This document shows, piece by piece, positions 1,270 through 27,782 of a DNA stretch of 64,000 nt. The notes under the pieces were generated by a model. That model worked only from the letters and a program-made list of their open reading frames with translations. It did not search any database and was not told the origin of the DNA. Within the stretch, counting starts at the first letter, position 1, and the number at the start of each line of letters is the position of its first letter. The translations under genes were made by a program, and so were the position numbers. The stretch comes from Jatrophihabitans telluris (GTDB lineage Bacteria > Actinomycetota > Actinomycetes > Mycobacteriales > Jatrophihabitantaceae). The stretch lies in assembly GCF_023516435.1 (NCBI RefSeq), contig NZ_CP097332.1, forward strand, positions 620,001 through 684,000, read 5' to 3'.

Positions 1270-2061
1270 TCAGTGGTTGAACGTCGTGGTGTCGGGTGCT
1301 CGCTTCTCTCGGAACGAGGCCCCGAGTTCCGCGGACTCGGCCGTGCGCATGTAGAACGGCATGAGCATTTCAGTGGCGATCCTGGAGACCGCTTCAACAC
1401 CGCCGGTTCGCACCGCGAACGAAGCCTTGACCGCTCGGAGCGCGTGCGAACCCCGGTCGGCAACGGCGAGTGCGTAGGCTCGCACCTCCTCGGCGAAGGT
1501 CGCGTCCGGAACCACCTTGTTCACAAGGCCCATTGCCAGCGCGCTCGAGGCAGTGATCTTCTCGTTGAGGAACCAGATCTCTTTGGCGCGTTTCCGTCCG
1601 ACCAGGTCCTCCAAGCACCACGTTCCGTAGCCCGCGTCGTAGCTGCCCATCGCCGGCCCAACCTGCCGAAAGACTGCGGACTCCTTGGCAATGGTCAAGT
1701 CACAGACCACGTGGAGCACGTGCCCCCCGCCCACCGCGTAACCGTTCACGGCGGCAATAACCGGCTTGGGATGGCGCTCGATCTGTGCGTAGACGTCGAC
1801 GACTGGGATGAAGCCGGGGTAGCCGAAGCTGTCCTCGAGGTCAGTTTTCTCGCCGCCGATGCAGAAGAAGCGATCTCCGGCGCCGGTGATGACCACGACC
1901 CGCGTACGCGTTTCCCGTCGATTTGACTCGAGCGCGGCATGGATCTCTCGCAACATCGTCGTGTTGAACATGTTCCCGTGCTCGGGCCGGTTCATCGTGA
2001 TGGTGAAGAGCGGCCCGTCCTCTGAACAGGTAATCGTCTCGTAGTCGTCAGCGGGCGCCAT
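1270..2061 (-). CDS. BadI/MenB-type crotonase (probable ring-opening beta-ketoacyl-CoA hydrolase)
   Basis: This 263-residue crotonase-superfamily protein falls in the MenB/BadI branch rather than among ordinary hydratases. It has the CIGGE oxyanion-loop motif (67-71), the GGGH motif (111-114) and the diagnostic segment VGPAMGSYDAGYGT (134-147), whose Asp (D142) corresponds to the catalytic Asp of MenB and BadI. The two catalytic Glu residues of enoyl-CoA hydratases are absent. BadI hydrolyses 2-ketocyclohexanecarboxyl-CoA to pimeloyl-CoA; MenB closes a ring in menaquinone synthesis. The surrounding acyl-CoA catabolic genes, and no visible men genes, favour ring opening. It is probably co-transcribed with the genes on either side. 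Confidence 0.8.
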   Translation of the reverse strand: MAPADDYETITCSEDGPLFTITMNRPEHGNMFNTTMLREIHAALESNRRETRTRVVVITGAGDRFFCIGGEKTDLEDSFGYPGFIPVVDVYAQIERHPKPVIAAVNGYAVGGGHVLHVVCDLTIAKESAVFRQVGPAMGSYDAGYGTWCLEDLVGRKRAKEIWFLNEKITASSALAMGLVNKVVPDATFAEEVRAYALAVADRGSHALRAVKASFAVRTGGVEAVSRIATEMLMPFYMRTAESAELGASFREKRAPDTTTFNH

Positions 2062-2099: not shown

Positions 2100-2942
2100 T
2101 CAGTTCTGGTAGCGCCGTATGACCGCGGACATGTCCAGGTGGCCGTGTTTCGGGACGGCGTCGGCGTACAGCTCGCGCGACAGCGCCGTGACCGGCAAAG
2201 CGCTTCCGTTGCGGTGGAATAGGTCTATCGCGAGATCGAGATCTTTGACGACGCCAGTCATTGCAAAGGAGACCGAATCGAACTTCTCGTGCAGGAAGCC
2301 GTCTTCGCGCCTTTTCATGTAGGGCGAGATCCGAGTGAGCATCGCGAAGGCGTCCGACTTGTCAATCCCGGCCGCGACCGCCGCGACCATCATCTCCGCC
2401 GTCGCGGCCGAAACGATGGCGAGCATGCTGTTGTGCAGCAATTTGAGCCGGGCTGCGGCGCCGACGGGACCTACGATTCGGGCTTCGCCCAGTGCGGCGA
2501 GGACCGGCCGCGCGCTCTCCATTGCGGCTTCGGTGCAGCCCAGGATTATGTCGAGGCTGCCCGCCAGCACCGCGCCCGTGCTGCCGAGCAGGGGTGAATC
2601 GATCAGCTGCGAGCCGGAGAGGCTGAGGGTTTCGTCCAGCTCGGTCAGCACGTCAGGGCCGGCGGTGCTCGTCTCCAGAAAGACCTGATGGTCAGCGGCC
2701 TGCACCAAACCGTCAGGGCCCAGGAACACCTGCCGCAACGCCGTCGGGTCGAAGAGGCTCGTTACGACAACGTCTGCGCCCTCGATCGCCTTTGCCGCGG
2801 TGTCGCAGACCGTTCCCACGCCGATTTCCTCCGCGCGGCTCCTCGTCCGGTTCCACAGCGTCAGCTCGAACCCGCCGACCTCGGTCAACCTTCGGGCGAT
2901 CGCAGCCCCCATCAAGCCAGTTCCGATAATCGCTACTCGCAT
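2100..2942 (-). CDS. NAD(P)-dependent 3-hydroxyisobutyrate dehydrogenase-family oxidoreductase
   Basis: A 280-residue beta-hydroxyacid dehydrogenase. The N-terminal Rossmann fold carries GTGLMG (7-12). The substrate loop LLGSTGAVLAGSL and a later KLLHN segment with the family's catalytic Lys are present. The all-helical C-terminal domain has the expected length. An AGGAGG ribosome site lies about six bases before the ATG. It is divergent from the GntR regulator across 129 bp that contain a palindrome. It probably oxidises a hydroxy acid or reduces a semialdehyde in the same pathway; the exact substrate cannot be read from sequence. Confidence 0.8.
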   Translation of the reverse strand: MRVAIIGTGLMGAAIARRLTEVGGFELTLWNRTRSRAEEIGVGTVCDTAAKAIEGADVVVTSLFDPTALRQVFLGPDGLVQAADHQVFLETSTAGPDVLTELDETLSLSGSQLIDSPLLGSTGAVLAGSLDIILGCTEAAMESARPVLAALGEARIVGPVGAAARLKLLHNSMLAIVSAATAEMMVAAVAAGIDKSDAFAMLTRISPYMKRREDGFLHEKFDSVSFAMTGVVKDLDLAIDLFHRNGSALPVTALSRELYADAVPKHGHLDMSAVIRRYQN

Positions 2943-2977: not shown

Positions 2978-3071
2978 CACGTTAGGGCAAGTACCAGCAG
3001 TCGATGCCGGACGGTGGCTGAGTCCTCCCGAGGGATCAGGCGGGTATTCTCAGCTCTTCGTCGCGAGTGAA

Positions 3072-3794
3072 GTGGAGAATCGCTTGGCCGGCAGCTTGGC
3101 AGCCTCGTCCTCGGAGGAGGACCGCCCCTCCCAGTCCGTGACCCGCAACGCGATGCTCAGCTCGCAGGTACGCCAGATTCTGCTGGAAAAGATCCTTCAG
3201 GGTGACTACCAGCCCGGAGAGCGTCTCGTGGAAACACGCGTTGCCAGGGAACTGGGTGTGAGCCAGGGGACGGTCCGCGAGGGGCTGCGGGCCCTGGAGG
3301 GCTTGGGCTTTGTCGAATCCACACCGTACCGGGGCGTCAGGGTGCGGGGGTCTATGACCTATGAGGAGATGGCCGCGATCCATCCCGTGCGGGCCGTGCT
3401 CGAAGATCTCGCGGCCAAGACCGCCGTTCCCGCGTTGGCCCGTGATTCCTCCCCGCTGCGTGCTGAACTCGAGGCGATGCGGGAGGCGGCGCGAGCCAAC
3501 GACCCGCGTGCCTACAGCGACCACAACGCGACCTTTCACCGGGTCATCGTGGCTTCGTCGGGAAACACCCCGTTACTGACCGCATGGGAGTCACTCGGCG
3601 TGGAGGCTCGCCTGCTCGTCACGACCATGACGACGGTGCCGAACCTGACCGAGGCAGCGGAACGGCATGTCCCGATCCTCGAGGCCGTCGAGCGTGGCGA
3701 CATCGAGCTGGTCTCGGCCCTGTTACGCGAGCACCAGCACACGTATGAAGCACTGCCCCACAGCAACTCCGCCGCGATCAGTCGCGGTCCCTGA
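3072..3794 (+). CDS. GntR-family transcriptional regulator (FCD subfamily)
   Basis: This 240-residue protein has an N-terminal winged helix (about residues 30-95, including LVETRVARELGVSQGTVREG) followed by an FCD effector domain. The FCD metal-site residues are visible as Asp and His in DHNATFH, then His in ERHVPI and in REHQH. FCD regulators usually sense organic acids or acyl-CoA intermediates and repress catabolic operons. The start is the GTG at 3072; a later ATG at 3153 would also leave the DNA-binding domain intact. Its 3' end overlaps the converging enoyl-CoA hydratase gene by 17 bp. It is the only regulator inside the island and its probable switch. Confidence 0.85.
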   Translation: MENRLAGSLAASSSEEDRPSQSVTRNAMLSSQVRQILLEKILQGDYQPGERLVETRVARELGVSQGTVREGLRALEGLGFVESTPYRGVRVRGSMTYEEMAAIHPVRAVLEDLAAKTAVPALARDSSPLRAELEAMREAARANDPRAYSDHNATFHRVIVASSGNTPLLTAWESLGVEARLLVTTMTTVPNLTEAAERHVPILEAVERGDIELVSALLREHQHTYEALPHSNSAAISRGP

Positions 3795-4569
3795 CGGGGG
3801 CCTGCCCGAACAGCGGCGGCCGTTTTTCCAGAAATGCCCGCAGACCCTCCGCGGCGTCGGCCGACGTCCGCACCGCATTCGACAGTTCGAACTCCACCGA
3901 GAGCCCGGCATCCAGGGGAAGGTCGAGGCCTCGTCGTACGGCGGCCTTGATGGATCTGACTGCGGTTGCGCTTCGTCCGGCAATCTCTGCTGCGATCGAC
4001 GCAGCCTCCTGCTGAAGTTCCTCCGGCGCCACGACACGGCTCACGAGCCCCAGCCGCAACGCCTCGGCGGCATCAACGTCTCGACCGGTGAGCATGAGGT
4101 CGAGGGCAGGTCCAACTCCGATCAGTCGCGGGAGTCGCTGGGTTCCCCCGAACCCGGGCATGATGCCAAGGCGGATCTCCGGTTGCCCGAACCGCGCGCT
4201 CGTCGATGCGATTCGAAGGTCGGCGGACATCGCAAGCTCGCACCCCCCACCCAGGCAAAGCCCGTTGATCGCGGCGACGACCGGTACCGCCACTGACTCG
4301 ATTCGCCTCATGAGCTGACTGCCCAGGGCAGTGCGCTCCGATGCCCGGTCAGGCGGGGTCTCGGCAGCCTCCCGAATGTCTGCCCCAGCGACGAAGCACC
4401 GGTCACCGAGGGCTGACAGAACCACGCACCGCACCGTGGGGTCCCGGTCGAGCGCCTCGAACGCGGCAAGCAGTTCACCGAGCAAGGCGGTCGAGAGTGC
4501 GTTGACCGGGGGCCTGTCGACCAACACGGTAGCCACCGCTCCGTCCATGCCCACCCGCAACTGACTCAT
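3778..4569 (-). CDS. Enoyl-CoA hydratase/isomerase
   Basis: A 263-residue crotonase with both catalytic glutamates of true hydratases: E111 in LGGGCELAM and E131 in FGQPEIRLGIMPG. It should add water across the double bond of a 2-enoyl-CoA, the step after the acyl-CoA dehydrogenase encoded nearby. In a cyclohexanecarboxylate-type pathway it would fill the BadK role. It lies 27 bp downstream of the MDR oxidoreductase on the same strand. Confidence 0.88.
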   Translation of the reverse strand: MSQLRVGMDGAVATVLVDRPPVNALSTALLGELLAAFEALDRDPTVRCVVLSALGDRCFVAGADIREAAETPPDRASERTALGSQLMRRIESVAVPVVAAINGLCLGGGCELAMSADLRIASTSARFGQPEIRLGIMPGFGGTQRLPRLIGVGPALDLMLTGRDVDAAEALRLGLVSRVVAPEELQQEAASIAAEIAGRSATAVRSIKAAVRRGLDLPLDAGLSVEFELSNAVRTSADAAEGLRAFLEKRPPLFGQAPVRDRD

Positions 4570-5745: not shown

Positions 5746-6597
5746 ATGAAGGCAGTCATCGTCGGGGCCGGAACCATGGGACAGGGCATCGCCGAAGTCG
5801 GATTGTCGGCAGGGTGGGAGATCCACCTTGTCGACGTTGATCAAGAGATCCTGCAGGCCGCACGATCGGCGATCATGCGGCGCTTGGCGCGTCGGCCGGC
5901 CGACCGCGAGCCGGCATCGCAACCCAGCATCGACACGCTGTGTCTCGGCACGGATCTACGAACAGCCTGCCTGCGGGCCGATGTCGTGATCGAGACCGCA
6001 TCCGAGGACTTGGCGGTCAAGGTCGGCATACTCACCGCAGCCGCCGAGGCGACGACATCGGACGCCATCCTTGCCACGAATACGTCCGCCTTGAGCGTTA
6101 CCGAGATGGGGGCGGCAAGCGGTGCACCACACCGCCTGGTCGGTCTTCACTTCTTCAACCCGGTGCCGAGAATGCGCTTGGTTGAAGTAATCCGCGGTCT
6201 GGAGACCTCCGAAGCTGTGGTGGAGCGGGCGGCGAACTTCTGCCTCGAACTTGGTAAGGATCCCGTGATCCTGAATGACTCGCCTGCGTTCGTGGCAAGC
6301 CGAGTCAACGCGCTTATCGGCAACGAGGCTTTCACGATGTTGCAGGAAGGCGTCGCGTCTGCTGAAGACATCGACAAGGCGCTCCGTCTTGGCCTCAACC
6401 ATCCGATGGGACCCTTCGAGCTCGGCGATCTGGTTGGCTGGGACGTCCGTTACAAGGTGCTGCAGCACTTGCACGTAACGCTCGGAGACCGATTCCGACC
6501 GAATCCCCTGATGGTGAAATACGTGCAGGCCGGACGTCTGGGGCGCAAGACCGGCCGCGGTGTCTACGAGTATCCCGCGATCGATTCAAAAGGATAG
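5746..6597 (+). CDS. 3-hydroxyacyl-CoA dehydrogenase (3-hydroxybutyryl-CoA type)
   Basis: A 283-residue single-function enzyme of the PaaH/HBD type, which oxidises 3-hydroxyacyl-CoA to 3-ketoacyl-CoA with NAD. The Rossmann motif GAGTMGQG occupies residues 7-14. The catalytic His-Glu pair is in GLHFFNPVPRMRLVEV (H135, E147), with the conserved Ser in TNTSALS (S113). The family's C-terminal end LGRKTGRGVYEY is complete. It opens the rightward run that continues with the acyl-CoA dehydrogenase and ligase. Confidence 0.9.
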   Translation: MKAVIVGAGTMGQGIAEVGLSAGWEIHLVDVDQEILQAARSAIMRRLARRPADREPASQPSIDTLCLGTDLRTACLRADVVIETASEDLAVKVGILTAAAEATTSDAILATNTSALSVTEMGAASGAPHRLVGLHFFNPVPRMRLVEVIRGLETSEAVVERAANFCLELGKDPVILNDSPAFVASRVNALIGNEAFTMLQEGVASAEDIDKALRLGLNHPMGPFELGDLVGWDVRYKVLQHLHVTLGDRFRPNPLMVKYVQAGRLGRKTGRGVYEYPAIDSKG

Positions 6598-6674: not shown

Positions 6675-7826
6675 GTGGATTTCACCGTATCGAACGAATG
6701 GCAAGTCCTGGTCGACACTCTTCGATCCTTCTGTGAGGACGAGGTCGATCCCTTGTGGCGGGAGATTGAGGAGTCGAACGCAATCCCCGAAGGACTTCTC
6801 GAAAAGGCTGGCCAACTCGGGCTGTTCGGCCTTTCCATTCCTGAGGAATATGGCGGCCTGGGCCTGCCCATGGTCGCGAAGGCTCTCGTCTATGAGCAGC
6901 TGGGGCGCACCCATGCTGGATTCACGTCGATCATCGGTACCCACTGCGGGATTGGCGTCTCAGTCATCGTCGCGGCCGGGTCGGAGGAGCAGAAGCAGCG
7001 ATATCTGCCTTCGTTGGCCTCTGGCGAGGTTATCGGGGCCTTTGCGTTGACAGAGCCCGAGGCCGGCTCCGATGCCGGAAACCTCAGGCTACGAGCGATC
7101 CGCGACGGCGAGGGATGGCGTCTCACCGGCACCAAGCACTACATCACGAACTCGAAGATTGCCGGCCTCTTCACGGTCTTCGCGAGAACCGGTGAGAGCG
7201 GGGGCAAGGGCATTTCCGCGTTCGTCGTCGAGGCCGGCGCGCCGGGCTTCGAGGTGGGCAGAGCCCAAACGACGATGGGCCTCCGCGGTTCGCACGTGGC
7301 CGAACTTTCGTTCGACGGGTGCTGGGTACCGGATGACCAGATGATCGGAGCACCCGGCACCGGCTACCAGGCCGCCCTCAGCACATTGGCGCAAGGACGG
7401 GTCGGCATCGCCGCGCGTTGTGTGGGGGCGGCGAGCCGGGCGACCGAGCTTGCCCTGACCTTCGCGACCCAGCGGGAGCAGTTCGGCAGCAAGATCGCCG
7501 AGTTCCAGATGATACAAGCGTATCTGGCGGAGATGGCAGCTGAGACCGAAGCGGCGAGGCACCTGGCCTATTACGCGGCGTGGCTGCTGGATCAGGGGGG
7601 CTCGGCCAGGCGCGAGGCGGCGATGGCCAAACTCATCGCAACGGAGACCTACGGTCGAGTCGTCGACAAGGCGGTCCAGATTCACGGCGGCATGGGGTAC
7701 TGCACGGAGACGGAGATCGAGCACTTCTATCGAGACGCCCGGATCACCCGCATCTATGAGGGCACCAGCGAGATCCAGAAGCTCGTCATAGCGAGAGACA
7801 TGATCAGAAAGGTGCGGGGACGGTGA
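6675..7826 (+). CDS. Acyl-CoA dehydrogenase
   Basis: A 383-residue FAD enzyme of standard length. The flavin and substrate signature FALTEPEAGSDAG is at 123-135. Near the end the segment IYEGTSEIQ carries the catalytic Glu (E362). It should introduce the alpha-beta double bond in an acyl-CoA and pass electrons to ETF. Start is a GTG with an AGAAGG-like ribosome site. Its stop overlaps the next start (GTGA), so translation with the CoA ligase is coupled. In the proposed alicyclic pathway this is the AliB-like step. Confidence 0.9.
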   Translation: MDFTVSNEWQVLVDTLRSFCEDEVDPLWREIEESNAIPEGLLEKAGQLGLFGLSIPEEYGGLGLPMVAKALVYEQLGRTHAGFTSIIGTHCGIGVSVIVAAGSEEQKQRYLPSLASGEVIGAFALTEPEAGSDAGNLRLRAIRDGEGWRLTGTKHYITNSKIAGLFTVFARTGESGGKGISAFVVEAGAPGFEVGRAQTTMGLRGSHVAELSFDGCWVPDDQMIGAPGTGYQAALSTLAQGRVGIAARCVGAASRATELALTFATQREQFGSKIAEFQMIQAYLAEMAAETEAARHLAYYAAWLLDQGGSARREAAMAKLIATETYGRVVDKAVQIHGGMGYCTETEIEHFYRDARITRIYEGTSEIQKLVIARDMIRKVRGR

Positions 7827-9829
7827 CCAGCGACGCAGCGATCGCCGGACCTCAGGAACGTGGTTTCGAGCGGGCAGATGTGGTGTGGCGCCCGTCGGCC
7901 CAGGTCGCCGGGTCGAGCAGGCTCAGCGCGCTCATGCGTGCGCACGGCATCGAGACCTTTCAGGAGTTGCATCAGCGATCGGTCAGTGACCCGGATTGGT
8001 TCTGGGACGCGGCCGTCAAAGACTTGGGCGTGGATTTCTATCAGCCCTATGAGCGGGTCCAGAACACGTCTCGCGGCCTTGCCTGGACCACCTGGTGGGA
8101 AGGCGCCAAGCTCAACGTGGTGCACTCCTGCCTGGACCGGTACGCCGGTACGCCGACGGATCTGAAGACGGCGCTGATCTGGGAGGGCGAATCAGGCGAG
8201 GTGCGTACGCGTACCTATGCCGAGCTCCGGCAGAGCGTCGACGACCTGGCGGCCGGAATGCGGGTGCTCGGCGTCGCCGTCGGCGATCGCGTCGGTGTCT
8301 TCATGCCGATGATCCCGGAGGTCGCAGTCGCGGTACTTGCGTGCGCCAAGATCGGCGCCGTCCTGGTGCCCGTCTTCAGCGGTTATGGCGCGGACGCGCT
8401 CGCGGCGCGGTTGCGGGACTGCGGCGCGTCGATGCTGATCTGCGCCGACGGGTTCTCCCGACGCGGGTCGACCGTGAACATGAAGGCCGTCGCCGACGCT
8501 GCGGCCGACGAATGCCCCGCCTTGGCGGCGGTGGTGACCGTGCCGCACGCGGGCCTTGCGCCTGGTCCACAGTCTGATCGAGACCATCAATGGTCGCAGG
8601 TCCTGGCGAGTGGTCACGCCGCACCCACCGTGACCGAACAGCTCGACCCCGAGGCAACCCTGATGATCATCTACACCTCAGGGACGACCGGGCCGCCGAA
8701 GGGCGCGGTTCATACGCACGGAGGCTTTCCCGTAAAAGGACTTTCCGATATGGCGTATGCCTTCGACGTCGGAGCATCGGACACCGTCTTCTGGTTCACC
8801 GACATCGGCTGGATGATGGGCGCATGGTTGATCTACGGATCTCTCATGGCCGGATCAACCATGGTCATGTACGAAGGGACCCCGGACACACCTACGCCCG
8901 ACCGGCTCTGGCAGCTCATCGAAGCCCACAAAGTGACTGTGTTCGGAGTGTCGCCCACCCTCATTCGCTCGCTGATGACCACCAACGCTGCCGGGCCCGC
9001 GGCCTATGACCTCTCGTCACTCCGCGTCGTTGGTGCGACGGGGGAGTTGTGGGACACCCAGTCCTGGATGTGGTGTTTCGACGAGGTGTGCGGCGGGCAG
9101 ATTCCGCTGATCAACTACGCCGGCGGCACCGAGCTGTCCGGCGGGATCCTGTGCGGAAACGTCCTGACACCATTGCGGCCCAAATCTTTCTCGGCCCCTA
9201 TGTTGGGCATGGCGGCCGATGTGGTCGATGAAGATGGCGTCCCGGTACGCAACGCTCTCGGCGAACTGGTTGTGCGGTCGGCAACGCCGGGGATGACCCG
9301 CGGATTCTGGCATGACGACGAGCGCTATCTCGACACGTACTGGTCTCGCTGGCCGGACGTGTGGGTTCATGGAGACTGGGGGTATATCGACGACACGGAC
9401 GGTCTCTGGTACCTGTTGGGTCGCTCGGACGACACGATCAAGGTCGCCGGGAAGCGCTTGGGTCCAGCCGAGGTGGAGACCGTGCTGAACAGCCACCCGA
9501 ATGTACTCATCTCGGCCGCCGTTGGCGTCTCGGATCCGGTGAAAGGGGAAAAGCTGATCTGCTTTGTCGTGGCTCGGGGCGCTCAGCCGCAAGACTTGTC
9601 ACTGTTGCCGGCTGAACTCGCCGACATGGTGGGCAGTGCTCTCGGCCGGCCACTGCGGCCCGCAGAGGTCTTCTTGGTGCCGGACCTTCCCCGCACGCGG
9701 AACTCCAAGATCGTTCGGAAGGCAATTCGACTCGCCTACGGTGGCGTATCCAACCTGGACCAGTCAGCGATCGAAAATCCGGACTCGCTGCAGGCAATCC
9801 GAGAGTGCGCTCGAGGTCGTGCTTCGTGA
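7823..9829 (+). CDS. AMP-forming acyl-CoA synthetase (acetyl/acetoacetyl-CoA synthetase-like)
   Basis: This 668-residue ANL-superfamily ligase has the long N-terminal extension (about 100 residues, PDWFWDAAVKDLGVDFYQP) typical of acetyl- and acetoacetyl-CoA synthetases. The P-loop YTSGTTGPPKG is at 284-294. The C-terminal hinge and lid carry the catalytic Lys in RTRNSKIVRK (K629). It activates a carboxylic acid with ATP and CoA. The neighbours suggest it activates the pathway's starting acid. It is translationally coupled on both sides by GTGA overlaps. Confidence 0.87.
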   Translation: MTSDAAIAGPQERGFERADVVWRPSAQVAGSSRLSALMRAHGIETFQELHQRSVSDPDWFWDAAVKDLGVDFYQPYERVQNTSRGLAWTTWWEGAKLNVVHSCLDRYAGTPTDLKTALIWEGESGEVRTRTYAELRQSVDDLAAGMRVLGVAVGDRVGVFMPMIPEVAVAVLACAKIGAVLVPVFSGYGADALAARLRDCGASMLICADGFSRRGSTVNMKAVADAAADECPALAAVVTVPHAGLAPGPQSDRDHQWSQVLASGHAAPTVTEQLDPEATLMIIYTSGTTGPPKGAVHTHGGFPVKGLSDMAYAFDVGASDTVFWFTDIGWMMGAWLIYGSLMAGSTMVMYEGTPDTPTPDRLWQLIEAHKVTVFGVSPTLIRSLMTTNAAGPAAYDLSSLRVVGATGELWDTQSWMWCFDEVCGGQIPLINYAGGTELSGGILCGNVLTPLRPKSFSAPMLGMAADVVDEDGVPVRNALGELVVRSATPGMTRGFWHDDERYLDTYWSRWPDVWVHGDWGYIDDTDGLWYLLGRSDDTIKVAGKRLGPAEVETVLNSHPNVLISAAVGVSDPVKGEKLICFVVARGAQPQDLSLLPAELADMVGSALGRPLRPAEVFLVPDLPRTRNSKIVRKAIRLAYGGVSNLDQSAIENPDSLQAIRECARGRAS

Positions 9830-10965
9830 AAGCCGCAATCGTGGGGATCGCGGAGCATGGGTTGGAAGGAGCCGGTACGCGTTCCGAACTTCAACTGCAG
9901 GCCGAGGCGGGGGCAATCGCACTCGAGGACGCCGGTCTGGTGGCAGCTGATGTGGACGCAATTTTCACGGCATCCAACGACATGAGCTGGATCCCATCGG
10001 TGCTGGTGGCCGAGTACCTCGGGATCGCAGCGAAGTACTCGGATTCCACCAATATCGGCGGATCATCGTTTGAGGCTCACATCGGGCACGCGACTGCGGC
10101 GATCGCAGCGGGCCTTTGTGAAATCGCGCTGATCACGTACGGAAGCAACCAGCGCAGCCGGCGGAGCCGGGCGCTGGGGGCAAGCGGCCCGGTGCGGCTA
10201 ACCCAACAATTCGAGGCGCCGTACGGGCTGCCCCTGCCAATCGGAGCGTATGCGCTTGCCGCCAGGCGCCACATGCATCTGTACGGCACGACCCAGGAAC
10301 AGCTGGCCCAGGTCGCGGTCTCAACGCGGGAGTGGGCCGCCCTCAACCCGTCGGCAAAGATGCAGGACCCTCTCTCTATCGAAGATGTGCTCGCGAGCCC
10401 GATGATCGTGGACCCGTTGCACCTCCTCGATTGCTGCCTCGTGACCGACGGTGCCGGCGCGGTCGTGGTGACGAAGGAGGGCGTTGCTCGCAACCTGCGA
10501 AGAGAACCCGTTTGGGTACTTGGCCATGGGACCGCCCACACCCACGCCACGATCAGCAACATGACTCACCTGACCCAGCCGTCGGCACGAGACAGCGGCG
10601 CCCGCGCTTTCGGGATGGCCGGTCTCAGACCCGACGAGATGGACGTGGTCGAGCTCTACGACTCCTTCACGATTACCCCCATCCTCACCCTTGAGATGCT
10701 CGGCTTCTGCTTGCCCGGGGAGGGCGGTCCCTTCATCGTCGACAGGGGAACAGGGCCGACCGGGACCTTTCCGATGAACACCAACGGCGGTGGTCTCTCG
10801 TTCGGTCACCCCGGCATGTTCGGCATCTTTCTGCTCATCGAGGCGGTTCGGCAGCTTCGCGGCGACGCGGGCAGGCGGCAGGTGACAGGAGCTCGCCATG
10901 CCGTAGCGCACGGCGTAGGTGGAGCCCTGAGCTCGTCGGCCACCGTCATACTAGGGCGAGGGTGA
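9826..10965 (+). CDS. Thiolase-fold protein, Ltp2/SCPx-like (probable retro-aldolase or acyltransferase)
   Basis: A 379-residue protein starting at the GTG that overlaps the ligase stop (GTGA). It has the two-domain thiolase fold and the late motif SFGHPGMFG. The nucleophilic Cys region reads TNIGGSSFEAH (Ser where thiolases have Cys, about 80-81), and the C-terminal Cys motif is AHGVGG (His in place of Cys). A conserved Tyr is in ELYDSF (Y278). Loss of both cysteines is typical of Ltp2-type aldolases that work with a DUF35 protein in steroid side-chain removal. The next gene is exactly such a DUF35 protein. Plain thiolase activity is therefore unlikely. Confidence 0.8.
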   Translation: MKAAIVGIAEHGLEGAGTRSELQLQAEAGAIALEDAGLVAADVDAIFTASNDMSWIPSVLVAEYLGIAAKYSDSTNIGGSSFEAHIGHATAAIAAGLCEIALITYGSNQRSRRSRALGASGPVRLTQQFEAPYGLPLPIGAYALAARRHMHLYGTTQEQLAQVAVSTREWAALNPSAKMQDPLSIEDVLASPMIVDPLHLLDCCLVTDGAGAVVVTKEGVARNLRREPVWVLGHGTAHTHATISNMTHLTQPSARDSGARAFGMAGLRPDEMDVVELYDSFTITPILTLEMLGFCLPGEGGPFIVDRGTGPTGTFPMNTNGGGLSFGHPGMFGIFLLIEAVRQLRGDAGRRQVTGARHAVAHGVGGALSSSATVILGRG

Positions 10966-10972
10966 GGTCGCA

Positions 10973-11410
10973 ATGGTCGACGAAACAAGGCCGTGGCCGC
11001 TTCCTGACGCTGACTCCGCGCCATTCTGGCAAGCGGCAAACCGAGGTGAGCTCCGGCTGCCTCGGTGTAGCCGGTGCGAGCGGTTCATCTTCTACCCGCG
11101 ATCGGTGTGCCCGCACTGCATGTCTCGCGCGCTGAAGTGGGAAGCCCTTTCCGGCGATGCCCACGTGTACTCCTACGCGATAGTGCACAAGTCGCCGCCG
11201 GGGTTCTCCAGTGAAGTCCCCTACGTCGTCGGGCTCGTCGACCTGGTCGAGGGGGTCAGAATGATGACGCGTCTTGTCGACTGTCCGGTCGAGGAGATCC
11301 GCATCGACATGGCGGTCAGCGTCACCTACCGCGATTTCGGCCACGAGTGGTTGATGCCGTGCTTCGCTCCGCAGCACGGGGTCACCGGCGCCGGCCAGCG
11401 CGCTCGATGA
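10973..11410 (+). CDS. DUF35 OB-fold zinc-ribbon protein, partner of the thiolase-like enzyme
   Basis: A 145-residue protein with a rubredoxin-like zinc ribbon (CSRC and CPHC, about residues 32-49) followed by an OB-fold domain (VYSYAIVHKSPPGF onwards). This architecture is the usual partner of SCPx/Ltp2 thiolase-fold enzymes, where it helps bind the acyl-CoA. A GAGGT ribosome site lies five bases before the ATG. It starts eight bases after its partner gene ends. Confidence 0.85.
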   Translation: MVDETRPWPLPDADSAPFWQAANRGELRLPRCSRCERFIFYPRSVCPHCMSRALKWEALSGDAHVYSYAIVHKSPPGFSSEVPYVVGLVDLVEGVRMMTRLVDCPVEEIRIDMAVSVTYRDFGHEWLMPCFAPQHGVTGAGQRAR

Positions 11411-18065: not shown

Positions 18066-18190
18066 ACCGACCCTCGCGAGAAGAACTGCACAGAGCAGGG
18101 AGCGGCGGCCGCCCGTCAGTTATCGATTCGTGACTGGACAAAGCTTGGGCGGTGGGTCTAGGACGGACCTTGGCCGAGGTGGGGTGCGTT

Positions 18191-19858
18191 ATGCGAAGTG
18201 GCGCGGCGGGACGTCGGAGTGCGGTGGCGGTGGGGGCAGTCGCCCTACTCGTTTCGGCGATGGGGGTCCCCGCCGCGTCTGGCCAACAGGCTGGTCCCTC
18301 CTCTGCCGGGGTCGCCGCGGTGCGGCCGGCGGCGCGCGGGGAGCTGGATTGCAACAATCTGAGCCCGGTCCAGCGTTCGGTTCGGCCCACGCTGATCTGC
18401 GCCGACGTGCGAGGGATCGGCGCGGACAAGTTCGAGGAGAACGGTCGTTATGTCGGACACGACGAACCGACCATCAATTTCTATTCGCACAAGCGAGGTT
18501 CCGGCAACACGGTGACGTGGGTCGAGAAGCTGCCGGTGGAGCCGAAGCATCTGCCGACCGTGCACTCTCCTGGCCACGACATCACTCACAGCTTCGAGCT
18601 TGCGGCGACGAACTGGTTCAGCATGGCCTATTGCGACAACCAGTCCTACCCGCAGCTGCCCTGTACACCCGAGAGTGATCGAAACGCGCCACATGGAGCG
18701 TTCCCGGGCGGCGGCAGTGGCCTTCTGGAACTTCAGTTCTACCCGCCCGGGTTCGCCCCGATCATGGACGCGCAGAGTTGCGACAACACGCACTGGTGCG
18801 CGGCCATGACGCTGGACAGCTTGGAGTTCACGGCTGGATTCCAAGTGGGCAACCCGAATTGCACCGAGCCGGTGAACTTCGCCTTCGTCCAACGCGATGG
18901 GATACCGACCGGTCCGCCGAGCCCGCAATTGGCCGACGTCAGCACGTTCACCCCTACCGCGAAAACCTTGCTCATGCGATCAGGGGACACGCTGCGGGTA
19001 TCCATTCACGACGTCGCTGTCGGCCCAGGGCAACTGGCCATGCGGGCTCGGGTAGATGACCTGACGACCCATCAGAGCGGCTTCATGACGTCCTCGGCTC
19101 GGAACGGCTTCATGCACACCAGCATCGTCGACTGCTCGGGGACGCCCTACAACTTCGCCGGCGAGTACGACACGGCCGGTACCGCGAACATCCTGCCCTG
19201 GGGAATCGGGAACACGAACATCGCCAGTGACGTCGAGACCGGACACTTCATCCCGTGCACCGGACTCACCAACCCCGGGACCTTCACGTTCGGCGCGTTC
19301 ACCGACACGTTCTTCAACAACTGCAGCGGACCGTACGAGTCCAGCGCGCCCGCGGACGACCCGGCGGCCAATGATGATCCGCCCTGCTATCCCAAGGGCG
19401 ACACGCACGGCGGTTTGGCCGCTCCCGATGAGGTCACCGGCTGCGAGCCCGTGACCGGCCCGTTCCCGAACAACGCCGACCTGGACTTCGACGGAACGCC
19501 GTACTGGCCGGATTGGCCGATCAGTACGAGGCCGACGCGGTTCCCGTCAACCTTCCTCCAGCATCAGCCAACGACCTCCGGAGCGCGGTACTCCCAGGTC
19601 GAGATCCAGACCGACCTGCCGGCCTTCGAACCGTCCTGCCAGGCCGATGGCACCGGTTGCGCGATCCCGGCGCCCGGGGCCCCCGGACACTTCTACCCGT
19701 GGTGGACGCTGGCCCGCGTGGGTGGAGCGTGCGCGTGGGAGTTTGGGCAGATGCACAACGGGCTCAGCTTCGGCCAGGACGCCCAGTACAACCACCCCAA
19801 CCCGCAGTCGCCGTTCGAGTGGACCAGTGGGGTCATCGCCAATCCCCGGTGCGCCTGA
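18191..19858 (+). CDS. Secreted Cys-rich protein of uncharacterised actinobacterial family
   Basis: A 555-residue protein with a clear signal peptide when started at ATG 18191 (Arg-rich n-region, AVAVGAVALLVSAM, cleavage near ASG). The mature part has about 16 Cys and the motifs YPQLPCTPESD, SCDNTHWCAAMTLDS and FVQRDGIPTGPPSP. These match a family I recall as recurrent in Streptomyces-like genomes without known function. No catalytic signature is recognised. The Cys pairs suggest disulphides outside the cell. It converges with the ice-binding-like gene across 33 bp. Confidence 0.72.
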   Translation: MRSGAAGRRSAVAVGAVALLVSAMGVPAASGQQAGPSSAGVAAVRPAARGELDCNNLSPVQRSVRPTLICADVRGIGADKFEENGRYVGHDEPTINFYSHKRGSGNTVTWVEKLPVEPKHLPTVHSPGHDITHSFELAATNWFSMAYCDNQSYPQLPCTPESDRNAPHGAFPGGGSGLLELQFYPPGFAPIMDAQSCDNTHWCAAMTLDSLEFTAGFQVGNPNCTEPVNFAFVQRDGIPTGPPSPQLADVSTFTPTAKTLLMRSGDTLRVSIHDVAVGPGQLAMRARVDDLTTHQSGFMTSSARNGFMHTSIVDCSGTPYNFAGEYDTAGTANILPWGIGNTNIASDVETGHFIPCTGLTNPGTFTFGAFTDTFFNNCSGPYESSAPADDPAANDDPPCYPKGDTHGGLAAPDEVTGCEPVTGPFPNNADLDFDGTPYWPDWPISTRPTRFPSTFLQHQPTTSGARYSQVEIQTDLPAFEPSCQADGTGCAIPAPGAPGHFYPWWTLARVGGACAWEFGQMHNGLSFGQDAQYNHPNPQSPFEWTSGVIANPRCA

Positions 19859-19891: not shown

Positions 19892-21166
19892 TCAATGGCG
19901 TCGGTCGGTTGTGGACCGGGTCCGCGCGGCGAGCAGGAGAAGGAGCCCGAGCAGAAGGGCTGCACCACCGATAGCTGTCAGTAGGGCGACCGAGCTTGGG
20001 CCGGTCTTGGGCAACACCGGCATCGGGTGGGACGTGGCCGGGTGTACAGACCTTGTCGCCGTCGCGTGAGCGCTCGTGGTGAATGGGGCGGCCGTACGTC
20101 GCGGCGTTGTTGCGGCGGCCGTGACAACGAAGGCCCTCGGCGCGGAGGTCGAGGGTGCGGAGTTCGGGCTGCCGCCGTAGACGGCAACCACCGTGCCGCC
20201 AGGCAAGGTCGTGCCGGCAGGAACAATGATCGTGGCGTGGCCGGTGGTGTCGACCGGTGCGCTACCGATCGCCACGCCATTGTCGTAGAAGCTCACCGTG
20301 CCCACCACCGGTCCGCCCGTGCTGATCACGTGGGCCCCGATGCTGACCGGGGTGCCCGCCTTGGCTGATGAAGGCACAGTCACGCTCGTGGTGGTGGAAG
20401 CTGCTCCCGCCGGCGGCGTGTCTGAGCAGTCTGGTGCGGTGAACACGTCGTTGTCCAAGGTGACCGAACCGGTCCCGGCGAGAGCACGGCCCTTCACATG
20501 CGTACTCGTCGTCACGGTCACGGATGTGGCGGCAAGGAGTGTGCCCTGAAACGTCGAGGCGGTGCCCAGGGTGGCCGAGCGTCCGACCTGCCAGTAGATG
20601 TGGCAAGCCTGGGCTCCGTTGATTGCAACGACATGGCTTGCGGTGGCGGTGATGAGCGTGGAGGCCACCTGAACGATGAACACCGAACTCGGATCACCGC
20701 GGCCGTCGAAGGTAACGGTGCCACTCAGGGCGAGAGGCCCGCTGGAGGTATAGACCCCGTCGTTCAAAGTCCTTCCGACCAGGTCACCCGCAACCGCCTG
20801 GGTACTCGCCCGTCCGGCCGCGTCGCGGTACGCATTGCTCACGTCGGACTGCGCCAGTCCGGCGACGGCGTCCGCGGAATGCCGAGCCCCGCCGGCGATT
20901 CCTGGTGGAAAGCCGGTGATGGCGGTGCCTGGGCTCACGCCGAGGTCGCCCGACAGCGTCGACGGCCCCGTGTTGGTGACGGTCTGACCAGCCAGTACCG
21001 AATACGACGCGGCGGTGCCGAGATCGATCGAGGGAGTCGCGGGCGAGGCGCCGGCCGGTGCCGCAGTACCGACCATCACGGCAAGTACCGGCGCCCCGGC
21101 CAGGGCGACCAGAAACCGACCGAGTCGGCGACCAGTACGGGATGGATGCGAGTATGAGGAGAACAT
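19892..21166 (-). CDS. Ice-binding-like (DUF3494) LPxTG-anchored surface protein
   Basis: A 424-residue secreted protein. After a signal peptide (about 1-42) comes a DUF3494 domain (IDLGTAASYSVLAGQTVTN to about 245), a beta-solenoid fold seen in ice-binding proteins and adhesins. Then follow an Ig-like repeat (about 258-350, with GTVSFYDNGVAIG), a Ser/Thr/Pro-rich wall-spanning region, and a sortase signal: LPKTG at 385-389, a hydrophobic helix and a basic tail. It is thus expected to be covalently attached to peptidoglycan. Ice binding itself is not shown; many mesophiles use the domain for adhesion. Confidence 0.85.
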   Translation of the reverse strand: MFSSYSHPSRTGRRLGRFLVALAGAPVLAVMVGTAAPAGASPATPSIDLGTAASYSVLAGQTVTNTGPSTLSGDLGVSPGTAITGFPPGIAGGARHSADAVAGLAQSDVSNAYRDAAGRASTQAVAGDLVGRTLNDGVYTSSGPLALSGTVTFDGRGDPSSVFIVQVASTLITATASHVVAINGAQACHIYWQVGRSATLGTASTFQGTLLAATSVTVTTSTHVKGRALAGTGSVTLDNDVFTAPDCSDTPPAGAASTTTSVTVPSSAKAGTPVSIGAHVISTGGPVVGTVSFYDNGVAIGSAPVDTTGHATIIVPAGTTLPGGTVVAVYGGSPNSAPSTSAPRAFVVTAAATTPRRTAAPFTTSAHATATRSVHPATSHPMPVLPKTGPSSVALLTAIGGAALLLGLLLLLAARTRSTTDRRH

Positions 21167-22828: not shown

Positions 22829-22845
22829 AGTTTCGTGGAGTCACC

Positions 22846-22929
22846 GTGCACGACGTTGTGTTCCTCCTGCTCACCGCCGCCGTCTTCCTCCTGCTGGCTT
22901 TCATCGCGCGTGGGGCGGAACGATTGTGA
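22846..22929 (+). CDS. Short hydrophobic peptide upstream of kdpF
   Basis: A GTG-initiated frame encodes 27 residues: a single membrane helix ([16 protein letters not shown]) and a basic/acidic end RGAERL. GTGGAG lies a few bases upstream as ribosome site. Its last codons overlap the kdpF start as GTGA, so it looks translationally coupled to the operon. It is not KdpF, which follows with its own hallmark ending. It may be an extra small subunit or a leader peptide. Confidence 0.55.
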
Positions 22930-23015
22930 GTGCCGACAATGTGCTTGGCCTGGTGGCGTCGGTGTTGATGGTCGGCTATCTCGTGTTCGCCCTGCTGTTT
23001 CCGGAGCGCTTCTGA
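22926..23015 (+). CDS. kdpF: KdpF, small subunit of the K+-transporting ATPase
   Basis: A 29-residue one-helix peptide starting [10 protein letters not shown] and ending [13 protein letters not shown], which matches the KdpF pattern (E. coli ends GYLVYALINAEAF). KdpF stabilises the KdpABC complex in the membrane. Start is the GTG within GTGA, and the stop overlaps the kdpA ATG by one base (TGATG). Confidence 0.88.
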
Positions 23016-24675
23016 TGAGCACCGGTTCGGCGGGCCTCCTCTTCGTGGTTACGCTGGTCGCCGCGCTGGCGCTCGTGCACAGGCCGCTCGGTGACTACAT
23101 GGCGCGAGTGTTGACGGGCAACCGTCATCTGGCAGCCGAGCGGGCGGTGTACCGGGCCGGCGGAGTGGACGCCGACGCGGATCAGACGTGGGGGCGGTAC
23201 CTACGCTCGGTACTGGCCTTCAGTGGTGTATCCGTTGCCTTCCTCTATGCATTCCTCCGCGTACAGCACCATCTTTGGCCGCCGTACCAGATGCGGCCGA
23301 TGAGTCCCGATCAGTCCTGGAACACCGCGGCGAGCTTTGTCACCAACACCGACTGGCAGAGCTACTCCGGGGAGAACGCGCTGGGATACGTCGTGCAGAT
23401 GGCAGGCCTGGCCGTGCAGAATTTCCTGTCCGCCGCGGTCGGCATTGCGGTGGCGGTTGCGCTGGTGCGTGGCCTGGTCCGCAGCAGGACCGACCGTGTC
23501 GGAAACTTCTGGGTCGACCTGACCCGGATCTGCCTGCGCATCCTGCTGCCGATCTCGATCGTGTTCGCAATCGTGTTCGTCGGCGCCGGGGTGGTGCAGA
23601 ACTTCCATGCGTACTCCGAGATTCACACTCTGGCGGGCGGCACCCAACCACTGCCTGGCGGCCCGGTCGCCAGCCAGGAGATCATCAAGGAACTCGGTAC
23701 GAACGGCGGCGGGTTCTATAACGCCAACAGCGCACACCCGTTCGAGAATCCGACCAGCTGGACGAACTGGCTGCAGATCTTTCTGCTGCTGTGTATAGCG
23801 TTCTCGCTACCGCGGACCTTCGGTCGGATCGTCGGCGACAAGCGGCAGGGCCACGCGGTGGTAGCGGTGATGGCGCTGCTGGCGGTGCTCAGCCTGGGGT
23901 TGAATCTTGCTGCCCAGACGACGCACCACGGCACGGTCCCAACGGCCGTGGGCGCGGCGACCGAGGGCACCGAGACCAGGTTCGGAGTGCCGGACTCGGC
24001 GGCGTTCGCGACGGGAACGACGCTGACATCGACCGGAGCCGTAGACAGCTTCCACGACAGCTACACAAGTCTGGCCGGAGGGACGCTGCTGTTGAACATG
24101 ATGCTGGGCGAGATCGCTCCCGGAGGTACGGGGTCGGGGCTCTATGGAATCCTCGTCCTCGCGATGCTGTCCGTGTTCATCGCCGGTCTGATGGTGGGAC
24201 GAACACCTGAATATCTGGGAAAGAAACTCGGTGCACGCGAGATGAAGTTCGCCTCGCTCTACATTGTGACCACGCCCTTGGTGGCCCTCGTCGGGACAGC
24301 TATCGCGACGGCGTTGCCCGGCCAGCGGGCAGCCATGCTGAACACCGGCCCCCATGGCCTTTCGGAGGTGCTGTACGCATTCACCTCGGCCGCAAACAAC
24401 AACGGCAGCGCGTTTGCCGGCATCTCGGTGAACACCGTTTGGTACAACACGGCTCTTGGGCTCGCGATGCTGTTAGGACGCTTCCTGCCCATCGTGTTCG
24501 TCCTGGGCCTGGCGGGCTCGCTCGCGCGGCAAAAACCCATTCCGGCCTCGGAGGGCACGCTGCCCACCCACCGGCCGCTGTTCGTCGGCCTGCTCACTGG
24601 CGTCACGGTGATCGTCGTCGCCCTGACCTACTTCCCAGCGCTGGCGCTCGGACCGCTTGCAGAAGGACTGCACTG

Positions 24676-24676
<1 letters not shown>
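23015..24676 (+). CDS. kdpA: KdpA, K+-binding channel-like subunit
   Basis: A 553-residue polytopic membrane protein related to the SKT K+ channel superfamily. The filter-like loops are visible as [35 protein letters not shown], the region around [15 protein letters not shown], and [12 protein letters not shown]. It binds and conducts K+ in the high-affinity Kdp pump. Start is ATG in TGATG after kdpF. Its stop shares one base with the kdpB ATG. Confidence 0.95.
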
Positions 24677-26853
<2,177 letters not shown>

Positions 26854-26858
26854 CCTTG

Positions 26859-27782
26859 ATGCGTTCACACCTCCGCTCGTTTCGCACACTGGCGGCCTCC
26901 CTGCGGATGCTGCTGATCTTCACGGTGATCGTGGGTGTCGCCTACCCGCTTCTCGTCACCGCGATTGCTCAGCTGCCCGGTCTCAGGGGCCCGGCCGACG
27001 GCTCGCGCATTTCTGCCGACGGCAGAGTGGTCGGGTCGAAACTGCTCGGGCAGAACTTCACCGACGGCACCGGACGCCCACTTCCGCAGTACTTCCAACC
27101 TCGGCCATCAGCATCCGGTGCCAGCGGGTATGACCCGACCACCTCCGGCGCCAGCAACCTCGGCCCCGAATCGGTCGTCGACGTCTTGCCGGACCCAGCG
27201 GGGAAGGCTGACACCGGCAAGCTCAGCCTGCTCACGCAGGTCTGTTCGCGCAGCGTTGCGATCGGAAGGCTCTACGGTGTCGATGGGTCACGCCCCTTCT
27301 GCACGCCCGACGGGGTCGGTGCCGTCCTGGCCGTCTTCTGGTCCGGCCCGGGCTACTTCGGCACTGTCACCCGGGTGGTCAGCCTGAACCAGACGGGCGC
27401 GGCAACCCCGTTCATCAGCACGTTCCGTGGGGTCAAGGTCGAGTTGGCGCAGTTCGGACAGGACTACTCACGAGGCCAGGTCGTCCCGGTCCGCGGCCCT
27501 GCGCCGGCGACACCAGCGGTCCCCGCCGACGCCGTCACGGCCTCCGGGTCCGGGCTCGATCCTGAGATCAGTCCGGCCTACGCAGCGTTGCAGGAAGCTA
27601 CGGTGGCCAGTGCTCGCCGGCTCACGATCGGTCAGGTCGATCAAGTCGTGCGGAAATACATCAAGGGTCGTGATCTCGGCTTCCTCGGCGAGCCGCGAGT
27701 GAACGTACTGCAGGTCAACCTCGCGCTCGACGCCGAGTACCCGGTGGGCGAGCACACCGCGCGGGGTACTGCGGTGGGCTAG
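26859..27782 (+). CDS. kdpC: KdpC, enlarged
   Basis: A 307-residue protein with one N-terminal membrane helix (about 17-37) and the KdpC marks GSKLLGQNF (59-67), YFQPRPSASG and TASGSGLDPEISPAYA (228-241). The C-terminal part ends in the usual VNVLQVNLALD. Compared with E. coli KdpC (190 residues) it carries about 115 extra residues between roughly 105 and 221, with two Cys. KdpC assists ATP binding by KdpB. No kdpD or kdpE sensor genes follow in this window. Confidence 0.92.
   Translation: MRSHLRSFRTLAASLRMLLIFTVIVGVAYPLLVTAIAQLPGLRGPADGSRISADGRVVGSKLLGQNFTDGTGRPLPQYFQPRPSASGASGYDPTTSGASNLGPESVVDVLPDPAGKADTGKLSLLTQVCSRSVAIGRLYGVDGSRPFCTPDGVGAVLAVFWSGPGYFGTVTRVVSLNQTGAATPFISTFRGVKVELAQFGQDYSRGQVVPVRGPAPATPAVPADAVTASGSGLDPEISPAYAALQEATVASARRLTIGQVDQVVRKYIKGRDLGFLGEPRVNVLQVNLALDAEYPVGEHTARGTAVG

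Follow-up and report, generated by a model that had tools for sequence, protein, structure and literature searches.

Two steroid side-chain aldolases pair a thiolase-fold subunit with a DUF35 partner. CtSal-CtShy acts on bile-acid side chains (PDB 9MYR) and TcLtp2-ChsH2 on the cholesterol side chain (PDB 6OK1); Tyr302 of CtSal and Tyr294 of TcLtp2 are catalytic bases backed by mutants, and modelling places the CtSal substrate hydroxyl at Gly89 (PMC12329534, from which the TcLtp2 facts used here are also taken). A non-steroid pair, IpfD/IpfE of pIBU218, has been assigned to acyl-CoA group removal in ibuprofen degradation (PMC6063337 and PMC9195938), which we read as retro-aldol chemistry. These systems were compared with a gene pair of Jatrophihabitans telluris found in a 64,000-nt stretch of contig NZ_CP097332.1 (positions 620,001 to 684,000; hereafter the window). 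The pair consists of a 379-aa thiolase-fold protein (THL; 9826..10965, + strand, GTG start) of the NF004811/PRK06158 clade and a 145-aa DUF35 partner (10973..11410, + strand, ATG start), in which a ChsH2-type zinc ribbon (C32-x2-C35-x10-C46-x2-C49) is combined with an OB fold.

The THL-DUF35 pair is probably a retro-aldolase of non-steroid acyl-CoAs whose active site is a Tyr/His variant. We prefer this reading because the nucleophile column holds Gly, the position of the Tyr base is kept, a DUF35 gene is adjacent, the nearest folds agree, and THL lies on the Sal/Ltp2/IpfD side of a branch with 100/100 support. The THL family works more probably like Sal, Ltp2, and IpfD than like a thiolase.

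Active-site residues of the thiolase-fold protein

The open reading frames (ORFs) and domains of the pair, proposed at 9826-11410 by a sequence-only reading, were confirmed (THL, Thiolase_C_1, 204 bits; DUF35 partner, OB_ChsH2_C, 85.5 bits, and zf-ChsH2, 48.2 bits); 7 bases lie between the two genes. That reading was also correct that no catalytic Cys is present: Cys is missing at all three thiolase places. Its Ser nucleophile was one column off and is rejected. Alignments with the Pyrococcus thiolase 7yvy (Cys; gap-free at the nucleophile loop), the SCP2 thiolase 6hsj (Cys), CtSal (Gly89), and TcLtp2 (Gly) place Gly79, the second Gly of NIGGSS, in the nucleophile column (codon 10060..10062, + strand), and Ser80 is one residue on. 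The replacement of the second Cys by His holds for the classical CxG place, which is occupied by His362, but not for the SCP2/DUF35 subfamily, in which the second Cys lies within HDCF; the equivalent in THL is Tyr278-Asp279-Ser280-Phe (YDSF motif; Tyr278 to Ser280 codons 10657..10665, + strand). The His362 column varies: the residues listed for the 109 related rows are His (61), Asn (28), Ser (13), Gln (4), and Cys (1). The GHP motif does remain, as Gly327-His328-Pro329 (His328 codon 10807..10809, + strand).

When residues numbered by us in the 9myr alignment are matched to those named in PMC12329534, Tyr278 corresponds to CtSal Tyr302 and TcLtp2 Tyr294, Ser280 to Cys304 and His296, and His328 to Gln352 and Tyr344. 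As a 3-ketoacyl-CoA thiolase, THL lacks the nucleophile Cys (Gly79) and the second Cys, whether of CxG or HDCF (His362, Ser280); of the HDxF and GHP His residues, His328 is there and the HDxF His is Tyr278.

In the alignment of relatives (112 rows, three of them the window's own, leaving 109), Gly79 was found in 109 rows, Tyr278 in 108 (the remaining one being a gap), and His328 in 105, with position 280 occupied by Ser (73), Ala (31), Cys (3), or His (1). Addition of 89 new loci and removal of identical sequences gave 250 rows; taking out 11 near-copies and the two copies from the window left 237 relatives, 130 of at least 45% identity to THL and 107 below (139 and 111 before that removal). 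Gly79, Tyr278, and His328 were present in 130/130 of the closer relatives, and position 280 was Ser in 92, Ala in 37, and His in one. His328, being kept in all 130, is the natural candidate for the acid role. By signature, the 107 distant relatives included C/H/C/H thiolases (21), G/Y/P/N (21), G/Y/H/Y of the Ltp2 type (12), G/Y/A/H (10), G/Y/C/Q of the Sal type (3), and smaller groups. Across the 250 rows, the nucleophile and HDxF columns were non-Cys/Tyr in 211, Cys/His in 25, non-Cys/His in 7, Cys/Tyr in 4, and other in 3.

Several related proteins showed other combinations. Four DUF35-superfamily thiolase-like proteins (L189, L191, L193, and L194) have Gly at the nucleophile column and retain HDAYSG and GHP; they are possible intermediates between Cys thiolases and the Gly/Tyr group. 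Two thiolase-like proteins (L180 and L267) retain the nucleophile Cys, with YNSF replacing HDxF. The NF006180 (PRK08313) proteins L238-L247 combine Gly and YVPFSW with NPIG in place of GHP, and may be non-catalytic partners.

In the mechanism that we propose, THL and its DUF35 neighbor would form a complex like Sal-Shy and Ltp2-ChsH2, and would cleave a non-steroid 3-hydroxyacyl-CoA by a retro-aldol reaction, yielding either acetyl-CoA or propionyl-CoA together with a ketone or an aldehyde. The backbone amide of Gly79 would bind the beta-hydroxyl, and Tyr278 would take its proton; the carbon-carbon bond would then break, and the thioester enolate would be protonated by the GHP residue His328, which stands in for Tyr344 in Ltp2 and Cys304 in Sal. 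The substrate would probably be an acid with a tertiary, branched, or in-ring beta-carbon, for which normal thiolysis is impossible. With the proposed Tyr278/His328 pair, the fold would have a third way of arranging its acid and base.

Predicted fold, family, and phylogeny

The AlphaFold2 model of THL had a mean predicted local distance difference test (pLDDT) score of 87.4 and a predicted template modelling (pTM) score of 0.90. The top folds in VIA-align were Sal (Z 50.7), 4u4e (49.0), TbSLP (48.9), and Ltp2 (48.3), followed by archaeal thiolases (47.3 and 46.4), BbsB (43.7), SCP2 thiolases (40-43.5), and classical thiolases (approximately 35). The first Foldseek entries were 4u4e, Sal, and Ltp2. 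The fold by itself is no proof of function.

THL belongs to NCBIfam NF004811 (PRK06158, "acetyl-CoA acetyltransferase"), with 502 bits against a cut-off of 421, and scores far under PRK07855 (252 vs. 469 bits) and the BbsB model (134 vs. 750). The PRK07855 cut-off was exceeded by the Ltp2-type rows of this study. We found no paper on PRK06158/NF004811 in the literature searched. In a 47-row tree, a 100/100 branch separates the Cys thiolases from the window clade (support 99/97), Sal (100/100), and Ltp2 plus IpfD (82/88). The Ltp2 rows and the Sal rows each form a 100/100 clade of their own, and THL is in neither. In a 70-row tree of chosen rows, the Cys-thiolase split had support of 100/98 and the window clade was joined with Sal (88/89).

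These results bear on the suggestion of the sequence-only reading that the pair has the Ltp2-DUF35 layout and may be an aldolase acting on a non-steroid branched hydroxyacyl-CoA. The adjacent ChsH2-type DUF35 agrees with that layout, but THL lies outside the Ltp2 clade. That reading had tied its idea to a place within the Ltp2 group; the phylogeny disposes of the membership, and the aldolase idea survives, since Sal and IpfD make clear that Ltp2 is just one part of the wider Cys-less branch. A non-steroid aldolase of the Ltp2/Sal kind is still the best reading of the Gly, Tyr, DUF35, folds, and 100/100 side, but THL is outside the Ltp2 group and is without the second catalytic residue of either Ltp2 (Tyr344) or Sal (Cys304).

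Genomic context and rival explanations

THL and DUF35 are the last of five genes that are probably co-transcribed, since they share a strand and are joined by 4-base overlaps and short gaps. The others are a 3-hydroxyacyl-CoA dehydrogenase (3HCDH; 5746..6597, +), an acyl-CoA dehydrogenase (ACAD; 6675..7826, +) 77 bp downstream of it, and an acyl-CoA ligase resembling ACS/acetoacetyl-CoA synthetase (7823..9829, +). The ACAD stop overlaps the ligase start by 4 bases, and the ligase stop overlaps the THL start by 4 bases. The closest relative, L032 from an uncultured bacterium, has a THL that is 76% identical. It shares these five genes and also a GntR/FCD regulator (3072..3794, +, with a - strand ORF at 3036-3539 as its shadow), a 3-hydroxyisobutyrate-dehydrogenase-like protein (2100..2942, -), and a crotonase of the MenB/BadI type (GSYDAGYG; 1270..2061, -), which we infer to belong to the THL pathway. 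In the 21 kb of L032, we found no counterparts of the window's second crotonase or of its alcohol dehydrogenase, downstream major facilitator superfamily, short-chain dehydrogenase/reductase (SDR), hydantoinase-like, and aldehyde dehydrogenase (ALDH) genes.

MenB and BadI were the top models for crotonase 1270-2061, both below cut-off, and this protein is likely a carbon-carbon bond enzyme of its own pathway. Around its homologues on plasmids of Ancylobacter, Celeribacter, and Burkholderia multivorans lie clustered genes for CoA activation, SDR, ACAD, and 3HCDH, along with a second crotonase. Such gene sets resemble the ali/bad alicyclic-acid pathway. It is from this resemblance that we guess at an alicyclic or branched acid as the THL substrate, the weakest part of the argument.

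A DUF35 was detected in 94 related loci; it stands immediately beside THL in 92 of them (73 downstream and 19 upstream; 94/96 if the window's own two copies are counted), and the two others have gaps of 151 and 170 bp. A DUF35 match was absent in 15/109 loci, 14 of which were only 3.5-4.7 kb long. Neighboring genes were counted in 54 loci with a THL at least 50% identical and at least 6.5 kb on each side, drawn from 138 loci with a THL at least 40% identical. Near means within 5 kb, and far means beyond 5 kb, a shorter zone of 1.5 to approximately 5 kb per side. DUF35 was near in 54/54 loci and any CoA-activating enzyme in 37/54. Near and far counts were 24 vs. 8 for ACAD, 16 vs. 2 for MaoC hydratase (detected by BLAST with six query sequences, by which some may be missed), 18 vs. 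3 for NDP-forming ligase, 11 vs. 3 for AMP-forming ligase, 12 vs. 7 for CaiB, 8 vs. 11 for crotonase, 2 vs. 1 for 3HCDH, and 0 vs. 3 for ALDH. Two label queries come from the counted loci L053 and L071, which thus match themselves; Louvain grouping of neighbor genes served only for choosing proteins to annotate. Plasmid loci gave further examples: MaoC, ligase, THL, and DUF35 in Polaromonas JS666; NDP-forming ligase, MaoC, ACAD, THL, and DUF35 in Sulfitobacter; and two MaoC, CaiB, DUF35, and THL in Achromobacter. The ChsH1/H2-Ltp2 pathway runs from activation through dehydrogenation and MaoC hydration to the DUF35 lyase. The same order applies to Shy-Sal (PMC12329534). The window departs from this usual module, with a crotonase in place of MaoC and 3HCDH within the operon. 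A Martelella plasmid pair of the NF004811 type (L149, 11468-16070) lies beside the tricarballylate genes tcuAB and not far from genes of a TRAP transporter, and is a different substrate context.

The genome of J. telluris holds one THL-type protein by protein search, with its own DUF35; the NF004811 model had six matches, with that of THL the one among the matches listed. A close homologue was found in 0/8 congeners, so the distribution of the cluster is patchy; one congener has a 39% identical protein that is IpfD-like in motifs and tree place. Elsewhere in the window are Kdp potassium ATPase genes (22835-27782; KdpA, P-type ATPase, and KdpC), a protein combining an ice-binding-like domain with a bacterial Ig-like one and a weak anchor of the LPXTG type (19892-21166), and a 568-aa ORF (18152-19858, +) with no Pfam or NCBIfam match, which may not be a gene.

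Several results weigh against a retro-aldolase. Residues 327-329, the His328 loop, were modelled at pLDDT <50, and the loop geometry is thus not defined by the model. The CtSal C304S mutant is inactive (PMC12329534), which suggests that Ser280 would be unable to do the job of Sal Cys304; YDSF could then not operate in the Sal way, and His328 would have to take over. The covariation of Cys loss with the His-to-Tyr change (Fisher 6e-24) was discarded as independent evidence, because it disappears on a tree. Among 87 of the 250 rows, kept after thinning at 62% identity, the Cys state changes only two times, with no significant independent pairs, so the co-occurrence is mainly shared descent, essentially one event. 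Bracketing of the window clade by Sal and Ltp2 was favored by the first tree (88/89). A tree that joins Sal to Ltp2, with the window clade outside, was not rejected in approximately unbiased (AU) tests (p-AU 0.46, 0.10, and 0.34), and the proven aldolases therefore do not firmly bracket the clade. The split tested sets Sal plus Ltp2 against the window clade plus thiolases, not the window within thiolases, and one test had L158 and L029 on the Sal plus Ltp2 side. The branching order of the window clade, Sal, and Ltp2 groups is not settled. Gene context also contributes: no MaoC was found near the window, the nearest of five places in the genome being approximately 157 kb from THL; the window's nearest candidate hydratase, the stand-in enoyl-CoA hydratase (crotonase) at 3778..4569 (-), is the one without an L032 counterpart; and a hydratase was near in 23/54 loci, 16 of which also had SDR or 3HCDH. 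The 3HCDH of the operon, shared by the window and L032, belongs to a class that normally feeds a thiolase, and SDR, able to do a 3HCDH-like oxidation, was near in 27/54 loci (far in 15).

These last two points favor a Cys-independent 3-ketoacyl-CoA lyase, in which the 3HCDH makes a 3-ketoacyl-CoA that CoA or water then attacks directly in THL-DUF35, with no covalent acyl-enzyme. Also in its favor are the GHP His, kept as in thiolases, and the short gene, annotated as 3HCDH-family, that immediately precedes THL on the Martelella plasmid (no MaoC is annotated in that stretch). It is nevertheless rather unlikely, as 3HCDH is near in just two of the 54 loci, Tyr replaces the HDxF His, and Rolfe et al. 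reason that this Gly rules out thiolytic cleavage by CtSal (PMC12329534). The pocket might instead serve another enolate reaction (decarboxylation of a malonyl-CoA-like acid or an aldol addition that builds the carbon-carbon bond), or THL might be a non-catalytic acyl-CoA-binding partner. TbSLP, one of the near folds, shows very slow malonyl-CoA decarboxylation (PMC12329534), and the GHP His is lost in some related Cys-less subfamilies, NF006180 included (signature G/Y/P/N in 21 of the 107 distant relatives); we regard this as distinctly unlikely given the invariant Gly79, Tyr278, and His328 in the 130 close relatives and the single such protein in the genome with a DUF35 of its own. That THL cleaves steroid side chains, as an Ltp2- or Sal-type aldolase would, is very improbable; 34-36% identity and the same DUF35 layout speak for it. 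Membership of THL in either group is ruled out by its separate clade and by the second catalytic residue, Tyr344 and Cys304 both being missing. In line with the sequence-only reading, Pfam recognised no steroid gene in a scan of 33 window ORFs. Steroid-named NCBIfam models matched two of 16 scanned window ORFs, only far below cut-offs, and HsaA, the one steroid marker used, had two matches genome-wide (28 and 23 bits vs. a cut-off of 450).

Extending the retro-aldolase reading to the family is possible and is put forward tentatively: NF004811 may comprise widespread non-steroid acyl-CoA retro-aldolases with a third type of active site, in which Tyr278 is the base and the GHP residue His328 the acid, and their label of acetyl-CoA acetyltransferase in Actinomycetota, Chloroflexota, Bacillota, and Pseudomonadota would then be wrong. 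The one in this genome would remove acetyl-CoA from a tertiary hydroxyacyl-CoA derived from an alicyclic or branched acid. A candidate reaction of that kind is that of the orphan (1-hydroxycyclohexan-1-yl)acetyl-CoA lyase (EC 4.1.3.35). Literature listings (titles and abstract starts, most subscription papers lying outside their coverage) named no cyclohexylacetate lyase or non-steroid thiolase-fold aldolase. If true, a family of several phyla named for acetyl transfer would be carbon-carbon lyases, two columns (Gly/Tyr vs. Cys/His) would tell likely aldolases and thiolases of the DUF35-linked superfamily apart, thiolase-fold aldolases would extend past steroids and ibuprofen, and orphan lyases taking acetyl-CoA from tertiary alcohols would gain gene candidates.

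Comparison with known systems

CtSal-CtShy is the closest structure (2.1 A over 369 residues, 35% identity) and shares with THL-DUF35 the Gly at the nucleophile column, the catalytic Tyr of YDxY/F, and the DUF35 partner. It differs in that its essential acid Cys304 is Ser280 in THL and its Gln352 is His328, so that only the Tyr of the Tyr302/Cys304 pair is present, and in its separate clade. Unlike in CtShy, the DUF35 here is not fused to MaoC, and its ribbon is of the C4 type found in TcChsH2, not the C3H1 type of CtShy (ribbon types from PMC12329534). TcLtp2-ChsH2 (34% identity) likewise has the Gly column, the Tyr base, within YDHF, and a C4, ChsH2-type DUF35 (OB_ChsH2_C and zf-ChsH2); its His296 and catalytic acid Tyr344 are Ser280 and His328 in THL, its clade is separate (100/100), and no steroid genes were recognised here.

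BbsB and archaeal AACT, which are DUF35-linked and of known thiolase function, share the fold, the DUF35 partner, and GHP (GHA in AACT); unlike THL, they retain the nucleophile Cys and the HDxF His (BbsB residues read from its sequence). IpfD, recognised by the gene order ipfABDEF in a record that labels the protein hypothetical, has the Gly column and YDAF, with a third position that is neither Cys nor His, and is adjoined, like THL, by a DUF35-type OB-fold gene. Unlike THL, it is without the GHP His (Tyr-type as in Ltp2), and it is 33% identical; its best model is NF004811 (287 bits, below cut-off). On pIBU218, approximately 11 kb from ipfDE and close to IS6100, a second thiolase-like/OB-fold pair of the Ltp2 type (L153, 938-2502; NF005892, 583 bits, over cut-off) lies with crotonase and CaiB. 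IpfDE is a non-steroid precedent for the reaction proposed here. The "putative thiolase" 4U4E of Sphaerobacter thermophilus, deposited as a thiolase, belongs to the same clade as THL, with the YDSF and HPGM signature and 53% identity. A search for 4U4E with thiolase found no paper naming it, and it is an existing structure for designing a test.

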